From NCBI GenBank assembly GCA_003220435.1, contig QHSL01000013.1, positions 1 to 47,375 of the forward strand: 47,375 nucleotides of DNA. The letters run 5' to 3'. Each line of letters begins with the position of its first letter. Positions within the stretch are counted from its first letter, which is position 1. Below are positions 2,617 to 40,050 of the stretch, piece by piece. The notes under the pieces are model-generated. The model saw only the letters and a program-made list of their open reading frames with translations. It was not told the DNA's origin and searched no databases. The DNA is from Candidatus Rokuibacteriota bacterium (GTDB lineage: Bacteria > Methylomirabilota > Methylomirabilia > Rokubacteriales > CSP1-6). Position numbers and translations under genes: made by a program.

Positions 2617-2979
2617 ATGGCCAAGGTAATGGTGGTCGACGACGCCTATTCAGAGCTCAAGGTGATGGAGACGATCCTGCGGTCGGCCGGCCACGATGTC
2701 GTGACGTACCTCGACGGCGACCAGCTCGAGGAGAAGATCGTCAGGGAGCGCCCGGACGTGGTGCTCCTGGACATCGTCATGCCCAAGCGCAACGGCTTCG
2801 AGGTGCTCCGTGCGCTCCGCAAGGACGACCGCACCCGGCAGACGCGCGTGGTCGTGGTCAGCTCGAAGAACCAGGAGAGCGATCGCGTGTGGGGCCTGCG
2901 GCAAGGCGCGGACGAGTACCTGCCCAAGCCGTTCACGCCCGACCAGCTGCTGGCGGCCGTACGGAGGTTCGCGCGGTGA
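2617..2979 (+). CDS. Single-domain response regulator (CheY/PilH-like)
   Basis: A 120-residue stand-alone receiver, the usual length for CheY, PilG or PilH. The acidic pair is D8/D9, the phospho-acceptor D52 lies in VLLDIVMPKRNG, the switch serine is S82 or S83, and the invariant lysine is K104 in LPKPF. There is no output domain, so it should act by protein binding after phosphorylation by the CheA further down. The start has a strong GGAGG site. Its last codons overlap the GTG of the CheW gene. Position before cheW and a PilJ-like receptor suggests a Pil-Chp-type regulator rather than a flagellar CheY; this is inference. Confidence 0.92.
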   Translation: MAKVMVVDDAYSELKVMETILRSAGHDVVTYLDGDQLEEKIVRERPDVVLLDIVMPKRNGFEVLRALRKDDRTRQTRVVVVSSKNQESDRVWGLRQGADEYLPKPFTPDQLLAAVRRFAR

Positions 2980-3425
2980 CCACGAACCTGCTCGACAGCT
3001 CGGCGGCACTCCGGGCGTGCGTGTTCACGCTCGCCGGGATGCCGTACGCGGTCGACGTCGCCCAGGTCAGGGAAGTGGCGATCTTCGACGAGTGGACGGT
3101 GATGCCGCTGGCCCCGCCCAACGTCCTCGGCGTGGCAAACCTGCGCGGAGATGTCCTGGCGATTGCGGACGCCCGCCCGCTGCTCGGGCTGCCGTCGCAG
3201 CGTACCGGGCGCCGCCAGTGGACGCTGGTCGTGGCCGCCGAGGGGCTCGAGGCCGCGATCGTCATCGACGGCGTCGTCAGCCTCGAGGCCTTCACCGGCG
3301 TCGTGCCGCTCGACGAGCCGAGCGCGCCGCACGCCCAGTGGACGCTGGGTGCCCTCACCGGCGAGCAGGGGCGCGTGCCGCTGCTCGACGCGGTGAAGCT
3401 CTTGCGAGCGCTCAGAGAGGGGTGA
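2976..3425 (+). CDS. cheW: CheW-like coupling protein
   Basis: A 149-residue CheW-domain protein that should link the receptor to CheA in a cytoplasmic array. Visible hallmarks are the FTLAGMPYAVDVAQVREV opening strands, the NVLGVANLRGDVLAIADAR core that is the most conserved part of CheW, and a late VVSLEAF segment. It starts at GTG 2976 in a GTGA overlap with the receiver stop, so translation is probably coupled. Its TGA overlaps the ATG of the binding-protein gene. It is as short as PilI-type CheW proteins. Family assignment is firm; the specific PilI role is inferred from neighbours. Confidence 0.92.
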   Translation: MTTNLLDSSAALRACVFTLAGMPYAVDVAQVREVAIFDEWTVMPLAPPNVLGVANLRGDVLAIADARPLLGLPSQRTGRRQWTLVVAAEGLEAAIVIDGVVSLEAFTGVVPLDEPSAPHAQWTLGALTGEQGRVPLLDAVKLLRALREG

Positions 3426-4738
3426 TGACGATCAAGCGTCGGAGCGTGCTCAAGATCCTCTCCGGAGCGGTGGCGGGCGGTGTCCTGGGCCGTGATCCCG
3501 CCCGCGCGTGGGCACAGCTTCCGCCTCGGGGCGTCGTCGAGCCGCGACTGGCCAGCGCGCCCGGCGTCACGCCGAAGGACATCAAGATCGGCATGAGCGC
3601 CGCCTTCAAGGGGCCCTCGGCCGGGCTGGGCACCGAGCTCTATCGCGGCGCGAGCGCGTACTACGCCGAGGTGAACCAGCGCGGCGGCGTGCACGGCCGG
3701 ACGATCTCGGTGGCGGCGCTCGACGACGGCTACGAGCCGACGCCCTGCATCAAGAACACGATCACGCTCGTCGAGCGCGAGCAGGTCTTCTTCCTCTCGA
3801 ACTACGTCGGCACGCCCACGCTCACACGCGCGCTGCCGGTGATCAAACGCTACGCCGACCGGCAGGTGATCCTGGTCGGGAACTTCACGGGCGCCCAGCC
3901 CCAGCGTGAGGACCCCTACGTCGAGCAGGTCTTCAACATCCGCGCCTCGTACCGCCAGGAGATGATGGCCCTGGTCGACCGCTTCTGGCAGGCGGGCGCC
4001 CGCAAGTTCGGCGTCTATTACCAGATCGACGCGTACGGCCGGAGCGGAACCGACGGCGTCGCGCGCGGCCTCGCCCAGCGCGGCGCCCGGATCGCCGCCG
4101 AGGCGACGTATGTCCGCGGCGCAAAGTTCGAGGACGACATGACGCCGGCGGTGCAGGCGCTCCGCCACGCCGGGGTCGACGTCGTGCTGTGCACGGGCGC
4201 CTACCAGGGCTGCGGCGCATTCGTCCGGACCGCGCGCGACCTCGGCTGGAACGCGCCCATCTCCAACGTCTCGTTCGTGGGCTCGGAGGCGATGCTGGGC
4301 CTGCTGCTCAAGCAAGGCAAGAGCGCCGGGCGTGACTACACCCAGGCGCTCGTCAACTCGCAGGTGGTGCCGAGCTACGACGACCTGAGCCTTCCCGGCG
4401 TCGTCGAGTACCGCACGCTGATGGAGCGGTACAAGCCGCTGGTGCCGGAGACGCTCCGCGACGCCAAGTACCCGCCCGAGCAGCTCAGCTTCCGCAGCCT
4501 CGAAGGGTTCGTCAACGCCAAGGTGATCGTGGAGGGGCTGCGACGCGCCGGCCCCAACCCGACGCGCGCCAGCTTCCGGCAGGCGCTCGAATCGCTGCGC
4601 AGCTTCGACCTCGGCATCGGGGCGCCGCTCACCTTCGGGCCGGAGCGCCACCAGGGATTGGACAGCGTGTATTTCACCAGTGTCGTGAATGGACGGTGGG
4701 TCCCTGTCACCGACTGGACCGCCGCGATGAAGGCATGA
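3425..4738 (+). CDS. ABC-type branched-chain amino acid/urea-like substrate-binding protein inside chemosensory operon
   Basis: A 437-residue periplasmic binding protein of the LivK/Peripla_BP_6 type. The N-terminus [14 protein letters not shown] carries a twin-arginine motif and a hydrophobic core, followed by mature sequence beginning near residue 30. The strand [16 protein letters not shown], the segment [19 protein letters not shown] and the later [14 protein letters not shown] are typical of the two-lobe fold. It has no permease or ATPase partner here. Its ATG overlaps the CheW stop and its stop overlaps the receptor ATG, so it is a fixed part of the operon. The likely job is to present a ligand to the receptor next door. 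The ligand is unknown. Confidence 0.9.
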
Positions 4739-6510
4739 ACCGACGACGCACGCTTCGTATCGGTCTGCTCCCCAAGATCGTCCTGTTCCTGGCCGCGGTG
4801 CTCGTCCCGCTGGCGGCGATCACGTGGTGGATCTCCGTTCAGCGGATGACCGCGAATCTGACCGACGAGTTCACCTCCAAGGGCACCGCGATCGCGAAGA
4901 GCCTCGCCAGCTCCGGCGTCGATCTCCTGCTCACGCGCGACGCCTCGACCGTGCAGGCGATCGTCGATCAGTTCGCGGCGATCAACGGCGTCAAGTACGT
5001 GATGGTGTACGACCCGCAGGCGAATCTGGTCGCCCACACCTTCTCGCCGCTGGTCCCCCCCGGCATCGTGGAGCGCAACGCCGTGCCCGGCGAGGCGGCG
5101 CAGCAGATCCGGGAGATCGCGTATCCCGATCCGGTCACCGGCGCCGTCCAGGAGATCATCGACATCGGCGTCCCGGTGCTGGCGGGCCAGCTCGGGACGG
5201 TTCGCGTGGGCATGGATCGCGCGATCATCGCGGCGGCGGCCACCCGGTCCGGCGAGTACCTGCTGCTCGCCTTCGGCGGCGCCGCGCTGGTTGCGATCGG
5301 CGCGGGCGCGCTCTTCGCTCACCGGATCATCCGGCCGGTGGGCCAGCTGGTCCAGGTGGCGGAGCGCGTCGGTCAGGGCGACCTCTCGAAGCTGGTTCCC
5401 GTCCGCTCGCGCGACGAGATCGGCCAGCTCGCGATGACGTTCAACGAGGCCATCGTGCGCCTGCGCTCGCTCGTGCAGACCGAGGCCGAGCGCGACGAGG
5501 AGCGGCGACGGCACGAGGATCTCCAGCGCAACATCACGCGGTTCCTCGACGTCGCCACCGAGATCTCCCAGGGCGACCTGACCCGGCGCGGCGAGGTCAC
5601 CTCGGACGTCCTCGGCAGCGTCGTCGACGCCATCAACGTGATGGTCGCCGAGCTGGCGACGATCATCGACGACGTGCGCGAGGCCGCCCAGCAAGTCTTG
5701 GCCAACGCCAACGAGATGATCGGCGCCATGGAACAGACGGCGGGCGGCGCCCAGACCCAGTCGCGCGAGGCGGTCTCCGTCAGCAACGCGATGGAGACGC
5801 TGACGCGCTCCATGCGCCGGGTGGCCGAGGACGCCGAGGCGTCGTCGGCCGCGGCCCGTCGCGCCTTCGACGCCGCGACGACGGGCGAGCAGGCCGTGCG
5901 CGCGAGCCTGACCGGCATGCAGCGCATCCGGGGCGAGGTGCAGCGAATCTCGCGGAAGGTCAAGAGCCTCGCCGACCGGTCGCTCGAGATCTCGGAGATC
6001 GTGAACACCATCGAGGACATCGCCTCGCAGACCCACCTCTTGGCCCTGAACGCCGCCATCGAGGCGGCGGGCGCCGGGGAATCGGGCCTGCGCTTCGCGG
6101 TCGTGGCCGAGGAAGTGCGCAAGCTCGCCGAGCGCTCCGGCAAGGCCGCCAAGGACATCGTGGTGCTCATCAAGGCGGTCCAGTCCGAGACGCAGCAGGC
6201 GGTCGTGGCCATGGAAGAAGGCACCAAGGAAGTGGAGGCGGGCTACAAGGTCACCGTCGAGGCCGGCGACAGTCTCCACCAGATCGGCGAGATCTCGCAG
6301 AAATCCTCGGCGCTGGCGTGGGACATCTCGCAGGCGACGCAGGAGCAGGTGCGCGGCGTCGAGGGCGGCGCGGTCGCCGTCCAGTCCATCGCGGGCGTCG
6401 CGGTCCAGACCGAGAAGGCCGTCCTCGAGACGCGCAAGACCATGGACCAGCTGGTCCGGGTCGCCGAGGCGCTGATGGCGAGCCTCTCGCGGTTCAAGCT
6501 GGCCGCGTGA
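4735..6510 (+). CDS. Methyl-accepting chemotaxis protein (PilJ-like)
   Basis: A 591-residue receptor starting at ATG 4735 (ATGA overlap with the binding-protein stop). One membrane helix lies near residues 13-34, a periplasmic region of about 140 residues follows, and a second helix lies near 174-197. HAMP covers about 198-250, and a second HAMP-like or PilJ-type segment ([13 protein letters not shown]) about 268-320. The coiled-coil signalling domain has its hairpin tip at [14 protein letters not shown] (about 432-446) and continues into [15 protein letters not shown]. The tip departs from the usual EAARAGE. It should bind CheW and CheA. The small periplasmic domain may receive the binding protein encoded just upstream; this is inferred from linkage. 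Confidence 0.92.
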
Positions 6511-6535
6511 GACCCCCATCGACGGGAGCGAAAAC

Positions 6536-9340
6536 GTGAGCGACGGCACCGATCAGCAGTTCCTGCAGAGCGTCTTCCTGATGGAAGCGTGGGACACCCT
6601 TGCCTCCATCGAGGAGGGCCTCGCCGCGCTCACCCGCTCGCCGGAGGCGACGGCCAGCGTCGAGCAGCTCCGCCTCGTGACGCACCGGCTGCGTGGCTCG
6701 GCGGCGCTCAACGGGCTGCCCCAGCTGGCGGCCCTCGCCGCGGCCATGGAAGAGACGGTCGAGCGTCTGGCCGTCGCGCGGCCCGGCACCGGCGGGCGGG
6801 ACGTGGAGGCGCTCTGCGCGATGGCGGTCGTGCTCAAGGCGGCGCTCGACACCATCGGCACCACCGGTACCGAGGACGCCGAGGCGATCGCGACCGCGCT
6901 TGCGCGGCACGCGCCCTCGTCGACGCCCGGGGCCTCCAGCGAGACGACGCGCAAGCTCGCCGAGCTCGACACGTTCTTCGGCGAGCGGATGGACGTGCTC
7001 GAGTACTTCGTGCCCGAGGCCGTCGAGCACCTGGAGTCGATGGCGCAGTCGCTCATGGCCCTCGAGCGCGACGGCTCGACCGACACCGAGATCGCGACGC
7101 TGTTCCGCGCCGTCCACACACTCAAGGGCGCCGCCTACACCGTCGGCTGCGGGATCATCGGCGACCTCGCCCACCGCATCGAGGACATGCTGGGAGAGGT
7201 CCGGGAGGGCCGGCGGACCCTGACACGACCGGCGATCGAGACGGTCTTCGCGGGCATGGACGCGCTCCGGGTGCTGGTGCGCAGCGCGGAGGACCCCGTG
7301 GAGGGGCGCGCGGCGGCCTACGACCGCGCGCTCGCGCTGCTCGCCTCGCTGCCGGCGGTCGAGGCCGAAGGGGCGGGCGAGCCGGCGCGCGAGGTGGCGC
7401 GCGAGCTCGCGACGCGGGTCAGCGGCGTGGGCGAGTCGACGGCCGTCGCGCACCGGGCGGAGGTCGCGCGCCCGATCCGTCCGAGCATCCGGGTCAACCT
7501 CGACCGGCTCGACTCGCTGATGAGCCTCGTCGGCGAGCTGGTGATCGCGCGGAGCCGGCTCGAGCGCCACCTGGGCCAGCTCGAGCAGGCCGGCGATCTC
7601 CTGTCGTTCACGCAGTCGCGCATGACCCAGACCGTCGCCGAGTTCGAATCCAAGTATGCGAGCCGCCAGGTGCCGCCGGCCGAGGAGGCGGGGCGGCCGA
7701 GCGACGGCGCGGCGGTGCCGCTGGGCGACGTGTTCACCGAGCTGGAGTTCGATCGCTACGACGACTTCAACCTATTGGCCCGCCGGGTCGGCGAGATTTC
7801 GAGCGATCTGACCGAGATCCAGCTCCAGCTGCACGGGCTCGTGCGCGTCGTGCGCGAAGATGCGGGGAGCGTGCAGCGGCTCAGCGGTGAGCTGCGCGGC
7901 CACGTCACCCGCGCGCGTCTGGTGCCGATCGGCCGCCTCTTCGCGCGGTTCGCCCGCCAGGTGCGTGAGGGCGCGCGGTCGGCCGGCAAGACCGTCGTGC
8001 TCGAGGTCCGCGGCGAGACGGTCGAGATGGACACCGCGATCGTGCAGCAGATGGTCGGCCCGCTCCTCCACCTGGTGCGCAACGCGATCAACCACGGCAT
8101 CGAGACCGAAGCGGAGCGGCGCCGGCTCGGGAAGTCGAGTCACGGCACCATCCACCTCGGCGCCGCCCACACCGGCGGATCCATCTACCTCGAGGTCGTG
8201 GACGACGGTCGCGGGATCGACATCACGGCCGTCGCCCAGGCCGCACGGCGTGGCGGCTTCGTGACGCCGGAGTCGCTCGCGCGGCTCGGCGAGCGCGAGG
8301 TCCTCGATCTGATCTTCCTCCCCGGCCTCACCACCGCTTCGGCGGTGACGGCCGAGGCGGGCCGCGGCGTCGGTATGGACGTCGTGCGCACGAACGTCAG
8401 CCGACTCGGCGGCGAGATCGAGGTCCAGACCGCGGTCGGCCGCGGCACGCGCTTCCGGATCAAGCTGCCGCTGACGATCGCGATCTCCGACGTGCTCAAG
8501 GTGCGCGTGGGATCCGAGATCCTGGCGGTGCCGGTGTCCGCGGTGCGGTCGATGATCGAGGTGAGCCCCGAGGAGATCCGCTCCGCCAGCGGCATGGAGA
8601 CGGTGGAGGTCGAGGGCCAGGAGGTGGATCTGGTCCGCCTGGACCGCCTGCTCGGCCTCGGCAGCCGTCCGTCCGGGGCCCTCGTGTCGATCGTGGTGCT
8701 GCGCACGGGACGCAAGCTCCTGGCGGCGGCGGTGGACGAGCTGCTCGCCAAGGAAGAGATCGTGGTGAAGGGTCTCGGCGGCTTCCTCCAGGGGTTCGGC
8801 CCGTTCTCGGGTGCGAGCGTCGTCGGCGACGGTGGGGTCATGCTGCTGCTCGATCCGCTGTCGCTCCTCGAGATGAGCGCCGCCGCCACCCTGGAGCCCA
8901 CGCCGGCGCTCGAGTCCGGTGGGCGCCCCGCCGTCGCGGCGTCGGCTTCCGACGGCCGGCCTTGCGTGCTGCTCGTCGACGACTCCGTCAGCGTGCGGAA
9001 GTTCGTGGGCGGGATGCTCGAACGCGCCGGGTTCCGGGTGGCCGCCGCCCGGGATGGCGCCGACGCGCTGGAGCAGCTCGCCGAGCAGCCCGTGAGCGTC
9101 GTGGTCACGGATCTGGAGATGCCGCGCGTGAACGGCTACGAGCTCATCCGGGACCTCAGCCGGGAGCCGGCCACGCGCGATCTGCCGGTCGTGGTGCTGA
9201 CCACGCGGGCGGGCGCCAAGCACGTGAGCCTCGCGCGCGAGCTGGGAGTCGAGCACTACGTCGCCAAACCCGTCGACGAGGCGTCCTTCGTCCAGCTCAT
9301 CGAGTCGCTGGCGGGGACGGCGCCGGCGCGGGTGGCATGA
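6536..9340 (+). CDS. cheA: Hybrid CheA histidine kinase with C-terminal receiver (ChpA-like)
   Basis: A 934-residue hybrid kinase. Two Hpt domains are visible: H50 in THRLRGSAALNG and H194 in VHTLKGAAYTVG. The dimerisation region begins near 315 (VNLDRLDSLMSLVGELVIARS) and contains a ChpA-like insertion with LEFDRYDDFNLLARR. The ATPase domain has HLVRNAINHGIE, VDDGRGID and GRGVGMDVV. A CheW-like regulatory domain covers about 650-790. A receiver (LLVDDSVSVRKF, VTDLEMPRVNGYE, YVAKPVD) occupies about 805-925. The GTG start at 6536 has a GGGAG site. It should phosphorylate its own receiver and the two single receivers of the operon. No CheB or CheR accompanies it. Confidence 0.93.
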   Translation: MSDGTDQQFLQSVFLMEAWDTLASIEEGLAALTRSPEATASVEQLRLVTHRLRGSAALNGLPQLAALAAAMEETVERLAVARPGTGGRDVEALCAMAVVLKAALDTIGTTGTEDAEAIATALARHAPSSTPGASSETTRKLAELDTFFGERMDVLEYFVPEAVEHLESMAQSLMALERDGSTDTEIATLFRAVHTLKGAAYTVGCGIIGDLAHRIEDMLGEVREGRRTLTRPAIETVFAGMDALRVLVRSAEDPVEGRAAAYDRALALLASLPAVEAEGAGEPAREVARELATRVSGVGESTAVAHRAEVARPIRPSIRVNLDRLDSLMSLVGELVIARSRLERHLGQLEQAGDLLSFTQSRMTQTVAEFESKYASRQVPPAEEAGRPSDGAAVPLGDVFTELEFDRYDDFNLLARRVGEISSDLTEIQLQLHGLVRVVREDAGSVQRLSGELRGHVTRARLVPIGRLFARFARQVREGARSAGKTVVLEVRGETVEMDTAIVQQMVGPLLHLVRNAINHGIETEAERRRLGKSSHGTIHLGAAHTGGSIYLEVVDDGRGIDITAVAQAARRGGFVTPESLARLGEREVLDLIFLPGLTTASAVTAEAGRGVGMDVVRTNVSRLGGEIEVQTAVGRGTRFRIKLPLTIAISDVLKVRVGSEILAVPVSAVRSMIEVSPEEIRSASGMETVEVEGQEVDLVRLDRLLGLGSRPSGALVSIVVLRTGRKLLAAAVDELLAKEEIVVKGLGGFLQGFGPFSGASVVGDGGVMLLLDPLSLLEMSAAATLEPTPALESGGRPAVAASASDGRPCVLLVDDSVSVRKFVGGMLERAGFRVAAARDGADALEQLAEQPVSVVVTDLEMPRVNGYELIRDLSREPATRDLPVVVLTTRAGAKHVSLARELGVEHYVAKPVDEASFVQLIESLAGTAPARVA

Positions 9341-9347
9341 GGTCGCG

Positions 9348-10157
9348 ATGCCGCGCCTGCTGTTGATCGACCCCGACCGCGACGGTCTCGACGCCCTGCA
9401 CGCGGCGCTGCGCCGCGCCGGCTTCGACGACGTCGCGACCGTGACCAGCGGAGCGTTCGCGCTGACCACGCTGGAACGCAACCGCCCCGACCTGATCGTG
9501 AGCCGCGCAAGCGTGCCGGATATCGACGGCCATGAGCTGTGCGCCATCGTACGCAACGATCCATCGATGACGGGCGTGCTGTTTCTCCTGCTCGAGGGCC
9601 CGGGCGATCACGCCCCGGAGCCCCAGCACGAGGACAAGCCGGACCAGGTCCTCGCCGGCGACCTGCCGCTCGCCACGATCGTGTCCGCGGTCGCCGCGCT
9701 GCTGCAGGAGCACGACGAGTCCGACGAGGCGGAGGCCGAGCTCGCGGGCCGGCCCACCGCCCCTGCCGCGCCGGTCGAGGCCGCACCGGCCGAAGAGGCG
9801 CCGCCGCCCGGCGCGTTCGAGGTGATGAAGCTGGCGGAGACCATGCAGGAAATCGTCGTGGGCACGAAGACCGGCCGCCTGGTCCTCACGCTGTGCTCGG
9901 GGCGAGGCGTCATCATCTTCGAGCGCGGAAAGGTCGTGCACGCCGAGTTCTTCGGGCTCATCGGCGAGACGGCCTTCGCGGCGCTCCTGGTCGCGGCGCA
10001 CGGAGAGGCTCAAGGCACCTTCGGCTTCGAGGCGCTCGTGGCGCTGCCGCCGAACGCGATGCGAACGATCAACCGCGATCTCAAGCAGCTCCTGTTGAGT
10101 GCTGCCGCCGGGATCGACGAGGGCCGCGCGGGCGCGGCCGTGGCTCCGGTTTCGTAG
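9348..10157 (+). CDS. Degenerate receiver fused to DUF4388/PATAN domain
   Basis: A 269-residue protein. Residues 1-120 have the receiver fold pattern, but all catalytic positions are altered: the acidic pair is D-P (LLIDPDRDG), the phospho-aspartate position in LIVSRASVPDIDG is arginine, and the conserved lysine is missing (LAGDLPL). It is therefore probably not phosphorylated. After an Ala/Pro/Glu linker comes a DUF4388 (PATAN) domain at about 155-255 with GTKTGRLVLTL, GVIIFERGKVVHAEF and GTFGFE. PATAN regulators of cyanobacteria act on type IV pilus motor proteins, which makes a pilus-directed output plausible. It starts 7 bases after the CheA stop. Confidence 0.85.
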   Translation: MPRLLLIDPDRDGLDALHAALRRAGFDDVATVTSGAFALTTLERNRPDLIVSRASVPDIDGHELCAIVRNDPSMTGVLFLLLEGPGDHAPEPQHEDKPDQVLAGDLPLATIVSAVAALLQEHDESDEAEAELAGRPTAPAAPVEAAPAEEAPPPGAFEVMKLAETMQEIVVGTKTGRLVLTLCSGRGVIIFERGKVVHAEFFGLIGETAFAALLVAAHGEAQGTFGFEALVALPPNAMRTINRDLKQLLLSAAAGIDEGRAGAAVAPVS

Positions 10158-10167
10158 GAGGCTCTGG

Positions 10168-10770
10168 ATGGCCAAGGTCCTGGTAGTGGACGACAGCCTG
10201 AGCGTCAGGAAAGTAGTCGAGAAGGCGCTCGAGGGTCGCGGCATGCAAGTGCTGTCCGCCGCGTCCGGCGCCGAAGCGCTCGAGCGGATCGAGCGCGACC
10301 GGCCCGACGTCGTGATCTGCGACGTCATCCTGCCCGACAAGGACGGCTATCAGATCTGTCAGTTCGTGCGGAAGCACCCGGCGATCAGCACGACGCCGGT
10401 GCTGCTCATCTCCGGCGTGGACAACGGCACCGTGCAGGCACGCGCCGCCGAGGTGAAGTCCGACGAGGTGATGTTCAAGCCGTTCGGCGTCGACGAGCTC
10501 GTCCGGAAGGTCGACGGCCTGCTGCGCAGCCGGACCAACGGTGCGGCGGCGGCCGCGAACGGAGCCCCGGCCGCGTCGGCCTCGGCTCCGGCCCAGACCC
10601 CGGCCGCGTCCGCGCCGGTCGCCGCCCCCGCTGCTGCCGCCGCCGGCCGCGTCCGACGCGAGCGACCGGGCGACCCTGGGCGAAGGTCTGAAGCGTCGGC
10701 TGGAGGAGCTCACCGACACGCCCGGTGTCCGCTTCGCCGTGCTCGCGGATCGCGAGGGGTTCATCATTGA
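10168..10770 (+). CDS. Response regulator receiver with Ala/Pro-rich tail; likely N-terminal half of a frameshifted fusion
   Basis: The reading frame gives 200 residues. Residues 1-120 are an intact receiver: VLVVDDS, phospho-acceptor in VVICDVILPDKDG, and K in MFKPFG. An Ala/Pro/Ser linker follows up to about 10640. Beyond that the same frame becomes Arg-rich and nonsense-like (RVRRERPGDPGRR), while the +1 frame begins a clear Roadblock domain. I read this as a receiver-linker-Roadblock protein with one extra base in the linker, for example in the C5 run at 10625-10629. TAGGAGG just before the ATG is a good ribosome site. Sequencing error, recent mutation or a programmed shift are all possible. 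Confidence 0.85.
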   Translation: MAKVLVVDDSLSVRKVVEKALEGRGMQVLSAASGAEALERIERDRPDVVICDVILPDKDGYQICQFVRKHPAISTTPVLLISGVDNGTVQARAAEVKSDEVMFKPFGVDELVRKVDGLLRSRTNGAAAAANGAPAASASAPAQTPAASAPVAAPAAAAAGRVRRERPGDPGRRSEASAGGAHRHARCPLRRARGSRGVHH

Positions 10771-11035
10771 GACGGCAGGCGAGCTGACGCCGGGCGCCGA
10801 CGAGGTGGCCGGCGCGCTCGCCTCCTGCCTCGCTGAGGCCTCGAGTGGCATCGGCCGCGAGCTCGGACAGGGCCAGCTGCTCGGCACGATTCTCGAGTAC
10901 GAGAGCGGCACGCTCCTGCTCCATGCCATCTCGCCGTCGGCGCTGCTCGCCGTCCTGCTGAGCGATCCGGGCGCGCTCGGCAAGGTTCGCTACTACGTCA
11001 GGAAGGCCGTACCGGAGCTCGCGCGGACCCTCTGA
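10541..11035 (+). CDS. Roadblock/LC7 domain protein (probably C-terminal half of the preceding regulator)
   Basis: The frame opens at GTG 10541, but its first 40 residues are an Arg/Pro shadow of the receiver's linker, so real coding probably begins near 10650. From there GEGLKRRLEELTDTPGVRFAV, DREGFIIETAG, ADEVAGALAS and a closing LLLHAISPSALLAVLLSD form a complete Roadblock/LC7 fold of about 120 residues. Such domains act as MglB-like GTPase regulators or dimeric scaffolds. No convincing independent start or ribosome site precedes the domain, supporting fusion to the upstream receiver. Its TGA overlaps the ATG of the next gene (TGATG), so this frame appears to be the translated one. Confidence 0.75.
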   Translation: MRRRPRTEPRPRRPRLRPRPRPRPRRSPPPLLPPPAASDASDRATLGEGLKRRLEELTDTPGVRFAVLADREGFIIETAGELTPGADEVAGALASCLAEASSGIGRELGQGQLLGTILEYESGTLLLHAISPSALLAVLLSDPGALGKVRYYVRKAVPELARTL

Positions 11036-12993
11036 TGCCCCCTCGGCGCGTCGCGAAGGTGACCGCGGCCACGTGGCTCGGGCTCCTGCTGAGCCTCGAG
11101 CTCTACGCATGCGCCATGCTGGCGCTCCGCAGCTTCGCGGCGACGCCGCTGCTCCCGTCGTGGCCGTCGCTGGTGATCCCGCCGCTGGTGGTTCCGCCGA
11201 TCGTGTACGTGGTCGTGGGGCTCCTGGGACTGCGCCCGCTCTCGCTGGCCCGCCGCATCGCCGCGATCGCCGCGATGTGCCTGCTCCACGCGCTGCTCGT
11301 CCTGGCGACGGCTGCGCTCTACACGGGACCGGATCTCACCGAGTACGAAGCGGCGCTCGCGGTGGCGCTCTGGGGCTCGCCGGCGGTGACGCTGCTCCAG
11401 CTCACGGCGGTGCTCCTCGTGTCGGCGCGCCTCCACCCCTTGCTTCAGGTGCGCCGGCGCGCCCCGAGCGTCGAGACGCGCGTGGCGCCGCTGCTGCGCC
11501 ACCCCGCCGAGATGACGCTTCAGAGGCCGTTCGTCTACCCCGGCACCGCGGCTGCGCGAGCCAGAATGGCGAAGATCGCGGTACGCGGGCCCGCTCGGGC
11601 AACGCCTCCCGAAGCGCCCTCCGTGCCGCCGGCGCCGACGCACGCGGTGGCCGAGCCAGCGCCTGAGCCCGCGTTCGTGGTCGCGCCGTTCAATGCGGCG
11701 GAAAAGATGATTCGCGTGCCGTTCGACCGGGTCGCGGACCAGCTCCCGGTCGAGATGTTCGTGCGGGCTCGTGAGGGGTTGAGCGACACGCTGCGCCCCG
11801 GCGTCTCGCTGCTCGTCCCGCTGCGCCTGGTCGTGCCGCAGCTCAGCGCGGGACGCGTGCGGGTGCGATGGGAGGAGATCGCCGATCAGTTCCCGCACGA
11901 CGAGCTCGCGCTGCCGCACGCGGAGATCGCGCGCCGGCTCCCACACGGCTCTCTCGTTCTCCCGCTCGACGAGGTGGTGCCGCAGGTCCCGGCCGAGATC
12001 CTCGAGCGCGTCGCGCCGCCGACCGACATCGACGCCATCGACGACCTCCGGCCATCGGTCGAGGCGCCTGCCCCTGAGGCTCCGGACACCGCGGTGGCAC
12101 GTGGGGCGCCCGCCGTGGAGACTCCGCCCGCCCCGCACGATACGTCGCCCGCAGTCGAAGCGCCGCCGGTCCCGCAGCCGACGGTGCCCGAGCCGGTGAT
12201 GGGGGCGCCGGCAGACCACGCGCTCACCGGCGAGGCGCGACGTGTCGCCGCGATGCTCGCGCCGCTCATGAGCGGGCTCGAGGTCGGTGAGCACCTCGAC
12301 GCCGGCACGACGCTCGTCACCGTCGTGGCGCCGCCCCTTCGCGAGGAGTCGGTCGTGCGCACCGCGACGCGCATCCGGCCGTTTCTGACCGACCCGCGGC
12401 TCTCGGCACCCGCGGCCCAGGCGACGCTGGTGGGGAAGGAGGCGACGATCGTGCTGACGCCGTTCGGGTCGTCGCTGCTCGTGGCGGCGGTCGCTTCCCG
12501 CTCGTCGCTGGCATGGCTCGAGCGCCTTTCGCGAAGCGCCGTGGCCCGCGCGCGCGCAACCGAGCGGAGCGACGCACACTCCGGACGCAATGGTAGCTCC
12601 GCCCGCAAACCGGGGCTGCACGTCGCGCGGGTGCCGTCGACCGTGCGCGAGCTCGCGGACTCGCTGACGGCGTTCGGTCCGGTGGCGCCGACCGTGCTGC
12701 GGGACGGCGAAGGATCGCTGAGCGCGTGTCTCTTCCTGCCGCACACCGTGGAGGCCGTGCCGCTGGCCGAGCTCGCGCGCGACCTCTACGCCGCGCTGGA
12801 GGACGCCGAGATCGGGCCGGTGACGTCGGTGACGTTGCGCCTCGGCGAGAATCGCATCGTCCTCCGCGTCGTCGCCGGCCCGTCAATGCCGCCGACGATG
12901 CTGGTCGGCGGCGGGCCCATCGATCGGCCTGGGCTGGCGCGCATCGAGCTGGAACGCGCGGCGGAACGGCTGAGCGCGCTCGCGCGGACCTGA
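11035..12993 (+). CDS. Membrane protein with four N-terminal helices, VPL-type tandem repeats and possible Roadblock-like tail
   Basis: A 652-residue protein I do not recognise as a named family. Four hydrophobic segments lie at about 11-33, 46-66, 75-95 and 105-130. A Pro/Ala linker leads to five copies of a 16-17-residue unit (226-242, 259-274, 275-291, 292-307, 308-323) with the pattern hxhPhxxhxxQhP, for example IRVPFDRVADQLPVEMF and LVLPLDEVVPQVPAEIL. After another Pro-rich linker, two regions (about 390-500 and 530-640) have alternating strands and helices like Roadblock/LC7 folds, for example ATIVLTPFGSSLLVAAVAS. It is coupled to the upstream gene by a TGATG overlap and ends the operon. 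A membrane anchor for the Roadblock regulator is a reasonable guess. Confidence 0.8.
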   Translation: MPPRRVAKVTAATWLGLLLSLELYACAMLALRSFAATPLLPSWPSLVIPPLVVPPIVYVVVGLLGLRPLSLARRIAAIAAMCLLHALLVLATAALYTGPDLTEYEAALAVALWGSPAVTLLQLTAVLLVSARLHPLLQVRRRAPSVETRVAPLLRHPAEMTLQRPFVYPGTAAARARMAKIAVRGPARATPPEAPSVPPAPTHAVAEPAPEPAFVVAPFNAAEKMIRVPFDRVADQLPVEMFVRAREGLSDTLRPGVSLLVPLRLVVPQLSAGRVRVRWEEIADQFPHDELALPHAEIARRLPHGSLVLPLDEVVPQVPAEILERVAPPTDIDAIDDLRPSVEAPAPEAPDTAVARGAPAVETPPAPHDTSPAVEAPPVPQPTVPEPVMGAPADHALTGEARRVAAMLAPLMSGLEVGEHLDAGTTLVTVVAPPLREESVVRTATRIRPFLTDPRLSAPAAQATLVGKEATIVLTPFGSSLLVAAVASRSSLAWLERLSRSAVARARATERSDAHSGRNGSSARKPGLHVARVPSTVRELADSLTAFGPVAPTVLRDGEGSLSACLFLPHTVEAVPLAELARDLYAALEDAEIGPVTSVTLRLGENRIVLRVVAGPSMPPTMLVGGGPIDRPGLARIELERAAERLSALART

Positions 12994-12995
12994 GC

Positions 12996-13010
12996 CGGCG
13001 GCGTCCGCCG
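12996..13010. terminator. GC hairpin between convergent genes
   Basis: CGGCGG and CCGCCG form a 6-bp stem around CGT, just after the stop of the chemosensory operon and just before the stop of dapL on the opposite strand. There is no T-run, so function as a shared terminator is inferred from position. Confidence 0.4.
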
Positions 13011-13016
13011 CTCGCC

Positions 13017-14246
13017 TCAGAGGCGCGTCTTGATCCGCTCGATCGCCTCGGCGGTCTGCGCCTTCGAGCCGAACGCCGTCAGGCGGAAGTAGCCCTCGCC
13101 GCTTGGCCCGAATCCGGAGCCGGGCGCCCCGACCACGTGCGCCTCGGTCAGGATCCGGTCGAAGAAATCCCACGACGAGACGGCGCGCGGCGTGCGCACC
13201 CAGATGTATGGCGCGTTGCGCCCACCGTAGACGGTGAAGCCGGCCGCCGCCAGTCCACCCCCGATGATCCGGGCATTCTCCATGTAGATGTCGATCAGCG
13301 CTCGCACCTGCTTCTGGCCGTCGGGCGTGTAGACGGCCGCGGCGGCCTTCTGGATGATGTAGGGCGGCCCGTTGGACTTCATCGCCACGCGGCGCGTCCA
13401 CAGCGCGTTGAGGCTCGTCGTCTTGCCGTCGGCGCCGCGCCCGCGCATCTCCTTCGGGACGACGGTGTAGGCCAGCCGCATCCCCGTGAAGCCCGCGTTC
13501 TTGGAGAAGCTCCGGCACTCGATGGCCACCTCGCGGGCCCCCTCGATCTCGTAGATCGAGTGCGGGACCGCGGCGTCGACGATGTAGGCCTCGTAAGCGG
13601 CGTCGTACAGGATGACCGCGTCCTCGGCGCGGGCGTAGTCGACCCAGCGCGTGAGCGCCTCGCGGCTCACCACGGCGCCGGTCGGGTTGTTCGGGAAGCA
13701 GAGGTAGATCAGGTCGACATGCCGGTCGGGCAGCGCCGGCTGGAACTCGTTCTCGGCGGTGCAGGGCAGGTACACGACCCCGGCATAGCGACCGCTCTCG
13801 TCGGCGGGCCCGGTGCGCCCGGCCACCACGTTGCTGTCGGCGTAGACCGGGTAGACCGGATCCATCAGCGCCACGACGCAATCCTGCGCGAAGATCTCCT
13901 GGAGGTTCGCGCTGTCGCTCTTGCCGCCGTCGCTCACGAAGATCTCGTCGACGCCCAGCTTGACCCCGCGGCCTCCGAAATCACGCGCGGCGATCTCGGA
14001 GCGCAGGAACTCGTAGCCGACGTAGGGGCCGTAGCCCTTGAACGTCTCGCGGCGCGCCATCTCGTCGGTGGCCTCGTGCAGGGCGCGAATTACCGCCGAC
14101 GGTAGCGGCTGGGTGACATCCCCGACGCCGAGGTCGATCAGCCGCACGTCGGGGTGGGCGTCGGCGAACACCTTCGTCCGCCGCCGAATCTCGGCAAACA
14201 GATAGCTCGGCCGGAGGTTCGAGTAGAACTCGTTGAATCTGGGCAC
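13017..14246 (-). CDS. dapL: LL-diaminopimelate aminotransferase
   Basis: A 409-residue class I/II PLP aminotransferase closely resembling DapL (EC 2.6.1.83), which converts tetrahydrodipicolinate and glutamate directly to LL-diaminopimelate and 2-oxoglutarate for lysine and peptidoglycan synthesis. Typical features are the N-terminal FNEFYSNLRPSYLFAEI, the GVGDVTQPLP segment, GPYVGYEFLRSEIA, LCFPNNPTGAV, the PLP lysine K249 in SFSKNAGFTG, and a late FRLTAFGSK. Length fits the family. The ATG has a GGGAGAG site upstream, and TAGAAT (14282-14277 on this strand) may be the -10. Its presence suggests the one-step aminotransferase route to diaminopimelate. Confidence 0.93.
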   Translation of the reverse strand: MPRFNEFYSNLRPSYLFAEIRRRTKVFADAHPDVRLIDLGVGDVTQPLPSAVIRALHEATDEMARRETFKGYGPYVGYEFLRSEIAARDFGGRGVKLGVDEIFVSDGGKSDSANLQEIFAQDCVVALMDPVYPVYADSNVVAGRTGPADESGRYAGVVYLPCTAENEFQPALPDRHVDLIYLCFPNNPTGAVVSREALTRWVDYARAEDAVILYDAAYEAYIVDAAVPHSIYEIEGAREVAIECRSFSKNAGFTGMRLAYTVVPKEMRGRGADGKTTSLNALWTRRVAMKSNGPPYIIQKAAAAVYTPDGQKQVRALIDIYMENARIIGGGLAAAGFTVYGGRNAPYIWVRTPRAVSSWDFFDRILTEAHVVGAPGSGFGPSGEGYFRLTAFGSKAQTAEAIERIKTRL

Positions 14247-36791: not shown

Positions 36792-38402
36792 CTACTTGTC
36801 CAGCCAGACCTTGTCCCAGTGCACTTCGAACTCCGCGTTGTAGACGTAGCCCTTCACCCACGGCTGGGCGACCATGTAGAACGGCGAGCCGGAGATGGCG
36901 TTCCAGTAGAGCTTGTCGGCGCTGAACTCCTGGAACTCCTTCGCGATCGCCTTGCGCTTGATCGGGTCCATCTCGCGGGCGTAGCGGGCGTAGTAGTCGT
37001 CGACCTTGGTGTCGAGGTGGCGCGTGTGGTTCCAGGAGGCCCCGGTGGTCGACAGGAACGCGTTGCTGTCGAGCGTCAGGAGGGACAGCAGATCCTCGAC
37101 GTACATGTCCCACGGCCCATCCTGGTTCGCCGCCGCCATCCAGGTGACCTTGTCGACCAGCCGGATGTTCGCGGTCACGCCGATGCGCGCCATCTGCTCC
37201 TTGATGACGGTGGCGATCACGTTGAACACGGTCTTCTCGGTGTTGGTCATCAGCTCGAAGGTCAGGGGTTTCTGCGGGCCGTAGCCGACCTCGGCGAGCA
37301 GCGCCTTCGCCTTGGCTTGATCGTAGGGACACAGGTGGTTGACGTCGACGGTGTCCATGGTGCCGGGCGGAATGATCCCGACCCACGGCGTGGCCTGCCC
37401 CTTGAACGCGATCTTCACGATCTCCTTGCGATCGATACCGTAGCAGCCGACGGCCTTGCGCACTCGGATGTCGCTGAAGATCGGGTGCGGCGCCCGGTCC
37501 TTGGACATGGGCTTGCCGTCCTTGGGAATGGTCACCTTCATCGCCGCGAGCATCGGGGTGGTTTCCTTGCCGGTCATGATCTGAGCGCGCGGGCTCTGCG
37601 CCTTCATCGTGTCGACGTGCTCGGGCGAGAAAGAAGCGATGAAGTCGACCTCGCCGTTCTTGAACGCCGCCATCTCGGTGACGGGATCCTTGATCACGCG
37701 GATGATGACCCGATCGAGGTACGGCAACCCGGGCTCGAAGTACTTCTCGAACCGGTCCATCACGAGGTGGCTGCCCTTCACCCACTCGATCAGCTTGAAC
37801 GGCCCGCAGCCGACGACCGCGCCGGGCTTGCCCTGCTTGCGGTCGTCGAGGCTGAATTTCTGCGTGGCGGTCGGCGAGTAGATGATCAGCCCGGTGCGGT
37901 AGCCCGCCAGCATGTGGAGCATGAACGCGTACGGGTGCTTGAGCCGGATCTGCACCGTGAGGGGATCGACCGCCTCGACCGAGTTCACCGACTCGTAGAA
38001 GGTGCGCATGCCGGAGCCGGTCGCCGGGTCCATCAGGCGGTCGATGCTGAACTTGACCGCGGCGGCGTCGACCTTCATGCCGTCGTGGAACAGGACGTTC
38101 TTCTTGAGCTTGAAGGTGTAGAGCAGCCCGTCGGGCGAGACCTGCCACGACTCGGCGGCGTCGCCCACGAACTTGCCGTCGGGCGTGATGTTGACGAGCC
38201 CGCACCCCACGTTCATCGCGACCCACATCATTTCGTAGCCGGGGGCGGTGTGGAAGTCGAGGTTGGCGATCTCGTTGCCGTAGGAGACCCGGAGCGTGCC
38301 GCCGCGCTTCGGCGTCTGCGCCTCGGTCGGCGCCGCGCCGGCCGCACCCAGCAGCACGCCGGTTCCGAGGAGCAGGCCGAGGAGCAGACGCATCGAGCGC
38401 AT
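36792..38402 (-). CDS. ABC transporter substrate-binding protein (SBP_bac_5), second tandem copy
   Basis: A 536-residue exported binding protein with a signal peptide (LLLGLLLGTGVLLGAAGAA). GTLRVSYGNEIANLDFHT starts the mature fold; SWQVSPDGLLYTFKLKKN, LFHDGMKVDAAAVKFSID and VGCGPFKLIEW are family 5 signatures. Four cysteines (NVGCGL, VGCGPF, VGCYGI, LCPYDQ) suggest disulfides. It is very similar along its length to the next-upstream gene, evidently a tandem duplication, with the largest difference in the loop around SNAFLSTTGASWNHT. It sits directly before the permease genes. Confidence 0.92.
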   Translation of the reverse strand: MRSMRLLLGLLLGTGVLLGAAGAAPTEAQTPKRGGTLRVSYGNEIANLDFHTAPGYEMMWVAMNVGCGLVNITPDGKFVGDAAESWQVSPDGLLYTFKLKKNVLFHDGMKVDAAAVKFSIDRLMDPATGSGMRTFYESVNSVEAVDPLTVQIRLKHPYAFMLHMLAGYRTGLIIYSPTATQKFSLDDRKQGKPGAVVGCGPFKLIEWVKGSHLVMDRFEKYFEPGLPYLDRVIIRVIKDPVTEMAAFKNGEVDFIASFSPEHVDTMKAQSPRAQIMTGKETTPMLAAMKVTIPKDGKPMSKDRAPHPIFSDIRVRKAVGCYGIDRKEIVKIAFKGQATPWVGIIPPGTMDTVDVNHLCPYDQAKAKALLAEVGYGPQKPLTFELMTNTEKTVFNVIATVIKEQMARIGVTANIRLVDKVTWMAAANQDGPWDMYVEDLLSLLTLDSNAFLSTTGASWNHTRHLDTKVDDYYARYAREMDPIKRKAIAKEFQEFSADKLYWNAISGSPFYMVAQPWVKGYVYNAEFEVHWDKVWLDK

Positions 38403-38418
38403 GAGCGTTATTCTCCGG

Positions 38419-40050
38419 TCACTTGTCCAGCCAGACGTTGTCCCAGTGGACTTCGAATTCGGCGTTGTAGACGTACCCCTTCACCCACGGCTGCGAGACC
38501 ATGTAGAAAGGCGAGCCCGAGATCGTATTCCAGTACATCTTGTCGACCATGTACTCCAGCAGCTCCTTGCCGATCGCCTTCCGCTTCGCGGGATCCATCT
38601 CGCGCGCGTAGCGGGCGTAGTAGTCGTCGACCTTGGTGTCGGTGTGGCGCGGGTGACTCCACACCGACGAGTTCTTCGACACGTAGGCGGTCGACAGATA
38701 GCCGTTGCTGTCGATGGTGAGCAGCGACAACAGATCCTCGACGTACATGTCCCACGGCCCGTCCTGCAGGGTCGTGTTCATCCAGGTGACCTTGTCCACC
38801 ACACGGATGTTCGCGGTCACCCCGATGCGCGCGAGCTGCTCCTTCACGACGGTGGCGATAACGCTGAACACGCTCTTCTCGTTGTTGGTCATCAGCTCCA
38901 GCGTGAGCGGCTTCGCGGGACCGTAGCCGGCCTCGGCCAGGAGCGCCTTTGCCTTGGTCTGGTCGTAGGGGCACATCTGGTTGACGTTAACCGATTCCAG
39001 CGTTCCGGGCGGCGCCATCCCGACCAACGGCGTGGCGTGGCCCTTGAACGCGATCTTCACGATCTCCTGACGGTCGATCCCGTAGCAGCCCACCGCCTTG
39101 CGCACCCGGAGGTCGCCGAAGATCGGGTGCGGCGCGCGCTCCACCGACATGGGCTTGCCGTCCTTCGGAACGGTCACCTTCATCTGCGCCACCATCGGGG
39201 TGGTTTCCTTGCCGGTCATGATGTGGGCCTTGGGGTTCTGCGCCTTCATCGTGTCGACGTGGTCGGGCGAGAACGAGGCGATGAAGTCGATCTCGCCGGC
39301 CTTGAACGCCGCCATCTCGGTGACCGGGTCCTTGATCACGCGGATCATCACGCGGTCCAGGTAGGGGCGCCCCGGCTCGAAGTACTTGTCGAAACGGTCC
39401 ATCACGAGATGGCTACCCTTCACCCACTCGATGAGTTTGAAGGGCCCGCAGCCGACCACCGCCTCCGGCTTGCCCTGCTTCCGGTCCTCCAGCGAGTACT
39501 TCTGGGTCGCCGTCGGTGAGTAGAGCACGAGCCCCGTGCGGTACCCGGCGAGCATGTGGAGCATGAACGCGTACGGGTGCTTCAGCCGGACCTGCACGGT
39601 GAGGGGATCGAGCACCTCGACGCTGTGGACGGACTCGTAGAACGGCCGCATGCCCGACTTGGTGGCCGGATCCATGATGCGTTCGATGCTGAACTTGACC
39701 GCGGCGGCGTCGACCGGCGTGCCGTCGTGGAAGAGGACGTTCTTCTTGAGCTTGAAGGTGTAGAGCAGCCCATCGGACGAGACCTGCCACGACTCGGCGG
39801 CGTCGCCCACGAACTTGTTGTCGGGGGTGATGTTGATGAGGCCGCACCCCACGTTCATGCCGACCCACATCATTTCGTAGCCCGGGGAGGTGTGGAAGTC
39901 GAGCCCCGCGATCTCGTTGCCGTAGGAAACGCGCAGCGTGCCGCCGCGCTTGGGCGCCTGGGCTTCTGAGAACAGCGGTGAAACGGTGACGGTCATGGCG
40001 AGCGCGATCACGCCGAGCAGGAGGCTAGGCTGAAGGCGTCGTGAGCTCAT
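38419..40050 (-). CDS. ABC transporter substrate-binding protein (SBP_bac_5), first tandem copy
   Basis: A 543-residue exported binding protein, first gene of the importer operon. GGGAGGGAAG precedes the ATG. The signal peptide (LLLGVIALAMTVTVSP) differs from that of its duplicate, but the mature parts are nearly the same, and the four cysteines are shared. The clearest divergence is SNGYLSTAYVSKNSSVWSH, which is longer by several residues than in the copy and may alter the ligand pocket. Two binders feeding one channel would widen or tune substrate range. A direct-repeat operator lies upstream. Confidence 0.92.
   Translation of the reverse strand: MSSRRLQPSLLLGVIALAMTVTVSPLFSEAQAPKRGGTLRVSYGNEIAGLDFHTSPGYEMMWVGMNVGCGLINITPDNKFVGDAAESWQVSSDGLLYTFKLKKNVLFHDGTPVDAAAVKFSIERIMDPATKSGMRPFYESVHSVEVLDPLTVQVRLKHPYAFMLHMLAGYRTGLVLYSPTATQKYSLEDRKQGKPEAVVGCGPFKLIEWVKGSHLVMDRFDKYFEPGRPYLDRVMIRVIKDPVTEMAAFKAGEIDFIASFSPDHVDTMKAQNPKAHIMTGKETTPMVAQMKVTVPKDGKPMSVERAPHPIFGDLRVRKAVGCYGIDRQEIVKIAFKGHATPLVGMAPPGTLESVNVNQMCPYDQTKAKALLAEAGYGPAKPLTLELMTNNEKSVFSVIATVVKEQLARIGVTANIRVVDKVTWMNTTLQDGPWDMYVEDLLSLLTIDSNGYLSTAYVSKNSSVWSHPRHTDTKVDDYYARYAREMDPAKRKAIGKELLEYMVDKMYWNTISGSPFYMVSQPWVKGYVYNAEFEVHWDNVWLDK

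Follow-up and report, generated by a model that had tools for sequence, protein, structure and literature searches.

A Pil-Chp-like chemosensory operon in Rokubacteria and its probable connection to MglA-type polarity and type IV pili

Where does a chemosensory signal go when the operon that encodes the receptor and the kinase also encodes PATAN and Roadblock proteins? This question is raised by an eight-gene operon on the forward strand at positions 2617-12993 of the window, a stretch of 47,375 nucleotides that represents contig C25 (QHSL01000013.1) of a Candidatus Rokuibacteriota genome (G000; 5.44 Mb, 95.5% complete, GC-rich, 147 contigs). The closest relatives with named matches are soil Candidatus Rokubacteria/Rokuibacteriota, and one more distant match is labelled Methylomirabilota. 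The locus is probably a chemosensory operon of the Pil-Chp type, the output of which is wired to a module of MglA-type polarity proteins and type IV pili via a phosphorylatable Roadblock protein.

A conserved chemosensory operon and the genes that follow it

The eight same-strand genes of the original prediction, which was made from the sequence of the window alone, are all present, with coordinates and Pfam domains in agreement (Table 1), and the junctions between consecutive open reading frames (ORFs) are, in order, -4, -1, -4, +25, +7, +10 and -1 bases. The membrane protein encoded by the last gene, used as a query against 119 relatives, has matches in 30 genomes that represent 13 of 57 genera; 28 same-class relatives were retrieved and all window proteins were mapped onto their loci. 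The same gene order is found in the window and in the 26 same-class relatives with CheA on the contig (for CheA, a 100% self-match and 26 relatives were obtained), and the operon is only partly visible in two genomes (G026 and G055). The genes flanking the operon are common mainly within the genus. The eight-gene operon is real, and its order is kept far beyond chance, as the original prediction had expected of related genomes.

The proposed ChpA-like hybrid kinase is borne out by Pfam, which identifies two Hpt stretches, the ATPase, CheW and a C-terminal receiver, and the LivK-like binder and the PATAN pseudo-receiver are likewise backed by matches to Peripla_BP_6 and DUF4388. The description of the receptor as PilJ-like had to be given up: the PilJ N-terminal domain is absent, and Pfam reports only sCache_3_2, HAMP and MCPsignal. 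The acceptor aspartate (Asp) is invariant in the stand-alone receiver (18 of 18 homologues) and in the receiver-Roadblock (REC-Roadblock) protein (28 of 28), which makes the latter a plausible phosphotransfer target of CheA. The REC-PATAN protein is a true pseudo-receiver, this residue being replaced in each of the 27 homologues.

Directly downstream of the membrane-protein gene, at a distance of no more than about 11 bases, 22 relatives encode an MglA-like GTPase of about 203 amino acids (aa). An mglB-like Roadblock gene (about 161 aa) usually comes next, and in several genera the row continues with a PilB-type ATPase gene, the product of which has a TPR-like region at its N-terminus; Pfam and NCBIfam confirm these downstream genes as Arf/Ras, Robl_LC7, and T2SSE with MshEN. 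The best NCBIfam model for this second Roadblock protein of the relatives is MglB (5e-20, below its cut-off), and the same model matches the Roadblock domain of the window with 9.2e-12, also below its cut-off.

The presence of MglA was judged by a profile built from 19 sequences of these GTPases, with which 62 genomes were searched. Strong matches occur in 24 of the 62: 22 are at the locus, one is in a distant lineage in which no che genes were seen (G097), and one is off-locus (G004). Among same-class genomes, 23 of the 29 that possess the locus have a strong match vs none of the 32 that do not (Fisher p=1.3e-11, a value inflated by genome kinship). Two Pfam models tried as tests for MglA were discarded: PF08477 (Roc) retrieves only IF-2-like frames even in mglA-bearing genomes and is uninformative on absence, and PF00025 (Arf) mixes IF-2-like frames with real MglA. 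The off-locus gene of G004, a second mglA type located beside a DUF4388-like gene and a dnaA-like fragment (contig C472, L183, 660-4259), is on a 4.3-kb contig that might be a binning contamination and was not counted at the locus. In same-genus genomes (L041-L045), a conserved protein of about 255 aa that starts with MRLVRVGG is encoded downstream of mglB, and its gene stays after the membrane-protein gene in G008 (L040), though mglAB is gone there.

PilT-family ATPases are encoded in all 62 genomes (58 of them above the curated cut-off). In the window genome, pilB, pilT, pilC (T2SSF) and two pilin genes lie together on contig C103, and PilB scores 744.8 bits against a cut-off of 675.65. A 2017 genome survey likewise predicts twitching motility in Rokubacteria (PMC5712423). 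The link to pili or polarity that had been deduced from the PATAN and Roadblock domains is supported by mglA next to the membrane-protein gene in 22 genomes, usually with mglB and in several genera with PilB, and no locus-bearing genome among those searched lacks both pilus genes and MglA.

Table 1. Genes of the chemosensory operon and the adjoining region (positions in the window)
Feature	Position	Strand	Evidence
Stand-alone receiver, PilG/PilH/CheY-like, 120 aa	2617-2979	+	Pfam Response_reg 4.2e-27
CheW-like adaptor in PilI-like position; 4-base overlap with preceding gene	2976-3425	+	Pfam CheW 2.3e-20
LivK-type periplasmic solute-binding protein with twin-arginine-like signal	3425-4738	+	Peripla_BP_6 2.6e-49
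Methyl-accepting receptor: sCache_3_2 sensor, HAMP, MCPsignal	4735-6510	+	Pfam
Hybrid CheA of ChpA-like layout: 2x Hpt, H-kinase_dim, HATPase_c, CheW, C-terminal Response_reg	6536-9340	+	Pfam
Pseudo-receiver and PATAN (DUF4388) protein	9348-10157	+	DUF4388 1.5e-9, Response_reg 1.8e-9
Receiver-Roadblock protein, +1 frame-shifted in the linker (about 10545-10664)	10168-11035	+	Response_reg 6.6e-24, Robl_LC7 3.2e-13 in two frames
Membrane protein, tandem Roadblock-fold C-terminus predicted	11035-12993	+	No Pfam/NCBIfam match; predicted structure
Site of mglA-mglB in relatives; here 23 bases up to next gene	12994-13016		Window ORFs; relatives
Aminotransferase-like gene, convergent with the operon	13017-14246	-	Window ORFs

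Elsewhere in the window, two tandem genes for oligopeptide-type binding proteins (SBP_bac_5) lie side by side on the reverse strand (36792-40050).

The membrane protein, the sensor and the proposed pathway

The membrane protein is novel, as first claimed, in that neither Pfam nor NCBIfam contains a matching family. In an AlphaFold prediction with 23 homologues, helices at the N-terminus are followed by a strand-helix repeat and, at the C-terminus, by two domains; about four N-terminal helices, a repeat region at residues ~225-330 and Roadblock-fold domains at residues ~398-509 and ~529-652 are predicted. Folded alone by AlphaFold, the C-terminal part (predicted local distance difference test, pLDDT, 81; predicted template modelling score, pTM, 0.80) adopts, twice in tandem, a helix-2 strands-helix-3 strands-helix arrangement. 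Structure comparison with VIA identifies Myxococcus xanthus MglB as the best Protein Data Bank (PDB) match of the second domain (Z 7.0, root-mean-square deviation (rmsd) 2.8, 111 residues aligned) and MP1/p14-Ragulator as a match of the first (Z about 6); the top rows are all Roadblock or Ragulator proteins, and unrelated rows start near Z 4.3. HPPD enzymes, the top Foldseek matches of the membrane protein, have an rmsd near 20 and a TM score of about 0.1 and were rejected, the VIA realignment ranking Roadblock proteins first. The C-terminus is predicted to comprise two tandem Roadblock domains, the shared fold being no proof of function.

The profile of this family matches a gene upstream of mglA in Verrucomicrobiota, Armatimonadota and the isolate AUK075 (E-values 2e-19 to 2e-5). 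At L105 (Verrucomicrobiota), L165 (AUK075), L143 (Armatimonadota) and L067 (G097), the homologue precedes an mglA-like gene, a Roadblock gene comes after it, and no che genes are seen. The verrucomicrobial locus L105 encodes, in this order, a TPR/MshEN protein, PilB, the membrane-protein family, MglA and a Roadblock protein, and the rokubacterial TPR-PilB is similar at its N-terminus to the TPR region of this locus (E-value 4e-7 over 40 residues). Given this gene order and the similarity of the TPR regions, other phyla possess a putative pilus-polarity core that is free of che genes, and Rokubacteria combine this core with a chemosensory system.

On the input side, an ortholog of the binding protein is found only together with the operon; in 21 same-family genomes without the operon there is no match at E<=1e-40, despite many paralog candidates. 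In G019, which has no binding protein, the sensor of the receptor is now dCache_1-like (below the Pfam cut-off), and the HAMP and signalling domains are kept; this gene (L055, 8022-10481, minus strand) represents a natural sensor swap, its sensor being longer and 20% identical over the old sensor region. These patterns suggest, short of proof, that the receptor obtains its signal via the binding protein. The signalling tip of the receptor is conserved in 25 of 25 homologues, with an 11-residue motif in which a glycine is invariant; classical Escherichia coli receptors carry arginine at this place.

The absence of CheR, CheB and CheD holds for the locus and not for the genome. Contig C71 (L068, 2137-8454) carries a second chemosensory cluster with CheA, a receptor, CheW, CheR, CheY and a CheD-like protein and no CheB nearby (CheR and CheD were named from sequence, without a domain scan), and the sole CheB methylesterase domain found in the genome belongs to a protein of at least 762 aa that runs off the start of contig C49 (L181, 3-2288). 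Similarly, the proposed operation without classical adaptation applies to the window locus and fails for four relatives with cheB inside the operon (G034, G013, G059 and G090), in two of which (G034 and G013) cheR is confirmed and placed between the receptor and cheA genes; in G034, cheB and two cheW-type genes follow cheA. The pilG/H-I-J-K-chpA-B-C order is full in G034 and G013, and the window copy lacks cheR and cheB. Because relatives show this order with cheR/cheB, a lineage-specific loss is the simplest explanation of why adaptation genes are missing from the window. Nine locus-bearing genomes contain no CheB domain at all.

These observations would fit the following pathway. The loaded form of a dedicated periplasmic binding protein would dock on the sCache receptor, which together with CheW would set the activity of the hybrid CheA; CheA would phosphorylate two receivers, the stand-alone one and that of the REC-Roadblock protein. 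In the phosphorylated state, the Roadblock domain of the latter protein would pair differently with other Roadblock domains, namely those of MglB and the tandem pair of the membrane protein, and this would set where, or for how long, MglA at the membrane is in its GTP form. The PilB motor would then be directed by MglA together with the PATAN pseudo-receiver. MglA is missing in the window species, and therefore the pathway there cannot end in MglA; in the lineage without mglA-mglB, PilB is probably the target of the REC-Roadblock, membrane-Roadblock and PATAN proteins, reached either directly or via an unfound partner. What the analysis shows is the gene content and its order, the co-occurrence with MglA, the kept or lost catalytic residues, the predicted fold and the selection on the genes; every contact between proteins, the way the signal runs and any influence on pili are inferred. 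That the operon sets pilus activity or polarity follows, by analogy, from the binding of PilB by PATAN regulators in cyanobacteria (Synechocystis; as reported in PMC10519157, which cites Han et al. 2022), from the control of pili by MglA-SgmX in Myxococcus (PMC7519303) and from the Frz-RomR-MglA relay in the same bacterium (PMC3441718). More tentatively, the REC-Roadblock protein might be a regulator under the control of phosphorylation that hands the chemosensory signal on to a Ras-like GTPase without intermediates, the membrane tandem-Roadblock protein being its platform in a Ragulator-like layout, and the Roadblock parts of the window lineage might control pili free of MglA.

Losses, possible decay and alternative outputs

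Several facts weigh against a chemosensory pathway to MglA and pili. The loci of G000 and its congeners G003 and G008 are unbroken and lack mglAB (the profile finds no MglA anywhere in the window genome), so the GTPase is dispensable for retention of the remaining operon in these genomes; genomes without the locus also carry pilT, so that pili do not need the locus; G031 has no binding protein and yet retains the sCache sensor; the Roadblock Z scores are moderate (maximum 7, below 8); and in the window the frames of REC (10168-10770) and Roadblock (10541-11035) are offset by +1 within a GC-rich Ala/Pro linker. To our knowledge, none of these bacteria has been cultured.

Among the alternatives, the one that survives best is an output other than motility (gene expression, adhesion or polysaccharide) through Roadblock/GTPase switching, the link to pili being incidental. 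Actinobacterial conservons couple a sensor kinase, Roadblock and an MglA-family GTPase to such outputs, with development and metabolism under their regulation (PMC4316618, PMC8510531), and same-genus operons have no adjacent PilB gene. Nevertheless, a gene for a PilB-type ATPase closes the operon in several genera and adjoins mglA in Verrucomicrobiota, PATAN and the Pil-Chp-like gene order both point to pili, and the Pfam scan of the operon proteins detects neither DNA-binding nor cyclic-di-GMP output domains, all of which makes this alternative unlikely.

The absence of mglAB and of cheR/cheB and the shifted REC-Roadblock frame could also mean that the operon of the window lineage is a decaying remnant. 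The sister genome G003 has the same 23-base junction to the aminotransferase-like gene side as the window, and a tree of six operon proteins separates G000 and G003 from G008, so that mglAB was likely lost at least twice. Between the window and G003, the Roadblock domain has a ratio of nonsynonymous to synonymous substitutions (dN/dS) of 0.028, the membrane protein has one of 0.31, and the other parts have values of 0.11-0.33, similar to those in pairs that keep mglA (0.09-0.23 and 0.25-0.45). These low ratios do not support decay of the operon after the loss of mglAB and show its remaining genes to be under purifying selection. G003 lacks the frameshift, and constraint is strongest in the Roadblock codons beyond it, so that the shift appears to be recent or an assembly error. 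Decay is accordingly improbable. By the same sequence comparisons, the Roadblock part presumably must function without MglA, unless the unsequenced 4-5% of the genome encodes a partner that escaped detection.

The receiver-Roadblock protein of the original prediction is confirmed as a single continuous frame in nearly all relatives, including G003, and is split into two frames in the window; alignment of the DNA to G003 does not place the indel within the linker, the two linkers differing in length. Both halves are still coding, and a programmed +1 frameshift or two separate genes might be imagined, but this is very improbable considering that a single frame is found in relatives, the 90-98% identical sister among them, that the break falls in repetitive, GC-rich sequence of a kind prone to indel errors, and that the only other broken case, G004, comes from a very fragmented assembly in which the membrane-protein gene is broken too.

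Related systems and implications

The Pil-Chp system of Pseudomonas aeruginosa (pilGHIJK-chpABC) is similar in its hybrid CheA with Hpt domains and a C-terminal receiver, in the presence of pili and in the order receiver, CheW, receptor, (cheR), cheA, (cheB, cheW) seen in G034 and G013. It differs in that here the operon includes a binding-protein gene, sCache replaces the PilJ domain, REC-PATAN, REC-Roadblock and the Roadblock membrane protein are added, mglA/mglB follow in relatives, and the window copy has no cheR/cheB. The Frz-RomR-MglA/MglB system of M. xanthus also places a chemosensory system upstream of MglA, with an MglB-type Roadblock protein and pili, and there, too, pseudo-receivers (FrzS) and TPR proteins (SgmX) are the pilus-side partners. 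In M. xanthus, however, FrzZ and RomR relay the signal and mglA is not near its signalling partners (PMC4316618), whereas here one operon contains a receiver fused to Roadblock; no search for RomR was made in these genomes.

The cyanobacterial Pix/Pil/Tax phototaxis operons share a protein with PATAN and a receiver and chemotaxis-like control of pili. Unlike in these systems, the PATAN receiver is without the Asp in every homologue of the present family, and we know of no Roadblock, MglA or binding protein in them. Actinobacterial conservons (CvnA-D) combine a signalling kinase, Roadblock, an unknown protein and an MglA-family GTPase in one operon, but with an ordinary membrane histidine kinase and without a CheA/CheW/receptor array or a pilus ATPase. 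A CvnA-type kinase with CvnB-D is not found at the present locus, where the kinase is CheA with a receptor and CheW. The proximity of MglA to PATAN genes has been noted previously (PMC4316618). In the open-licence literature, we found no description of a chemosensory operon containing mglA/mglB, nor of a single operon that combines a chemosensory system fed by a binding protein, a receiver-Roadblock fusion, a membrane tandem-Roadblock protein, MglA/MglB and PilB.

In Myxococcus, with its scattered genes and a relay via FrzZ and RomR, the signalling from chemotaxis-like systems to MglA is understood only in part. With the sensor, the kinase, a phosphorylatable Roadblock protein, the GTPase, its partner Roadblock protein and the pilus motor in one operon, the genes themselves indicate the order of the pathway, which is testable with purified proteins, and the natural deletions of mglAB, cheR/cheB and the binding protein provide built-in controls. 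In addition, a likely role and a likely fold are assigned to an undescribed membrane-protein family that adjoins mglA in several phyla and, currently lacking a Pfam entry, could become one.

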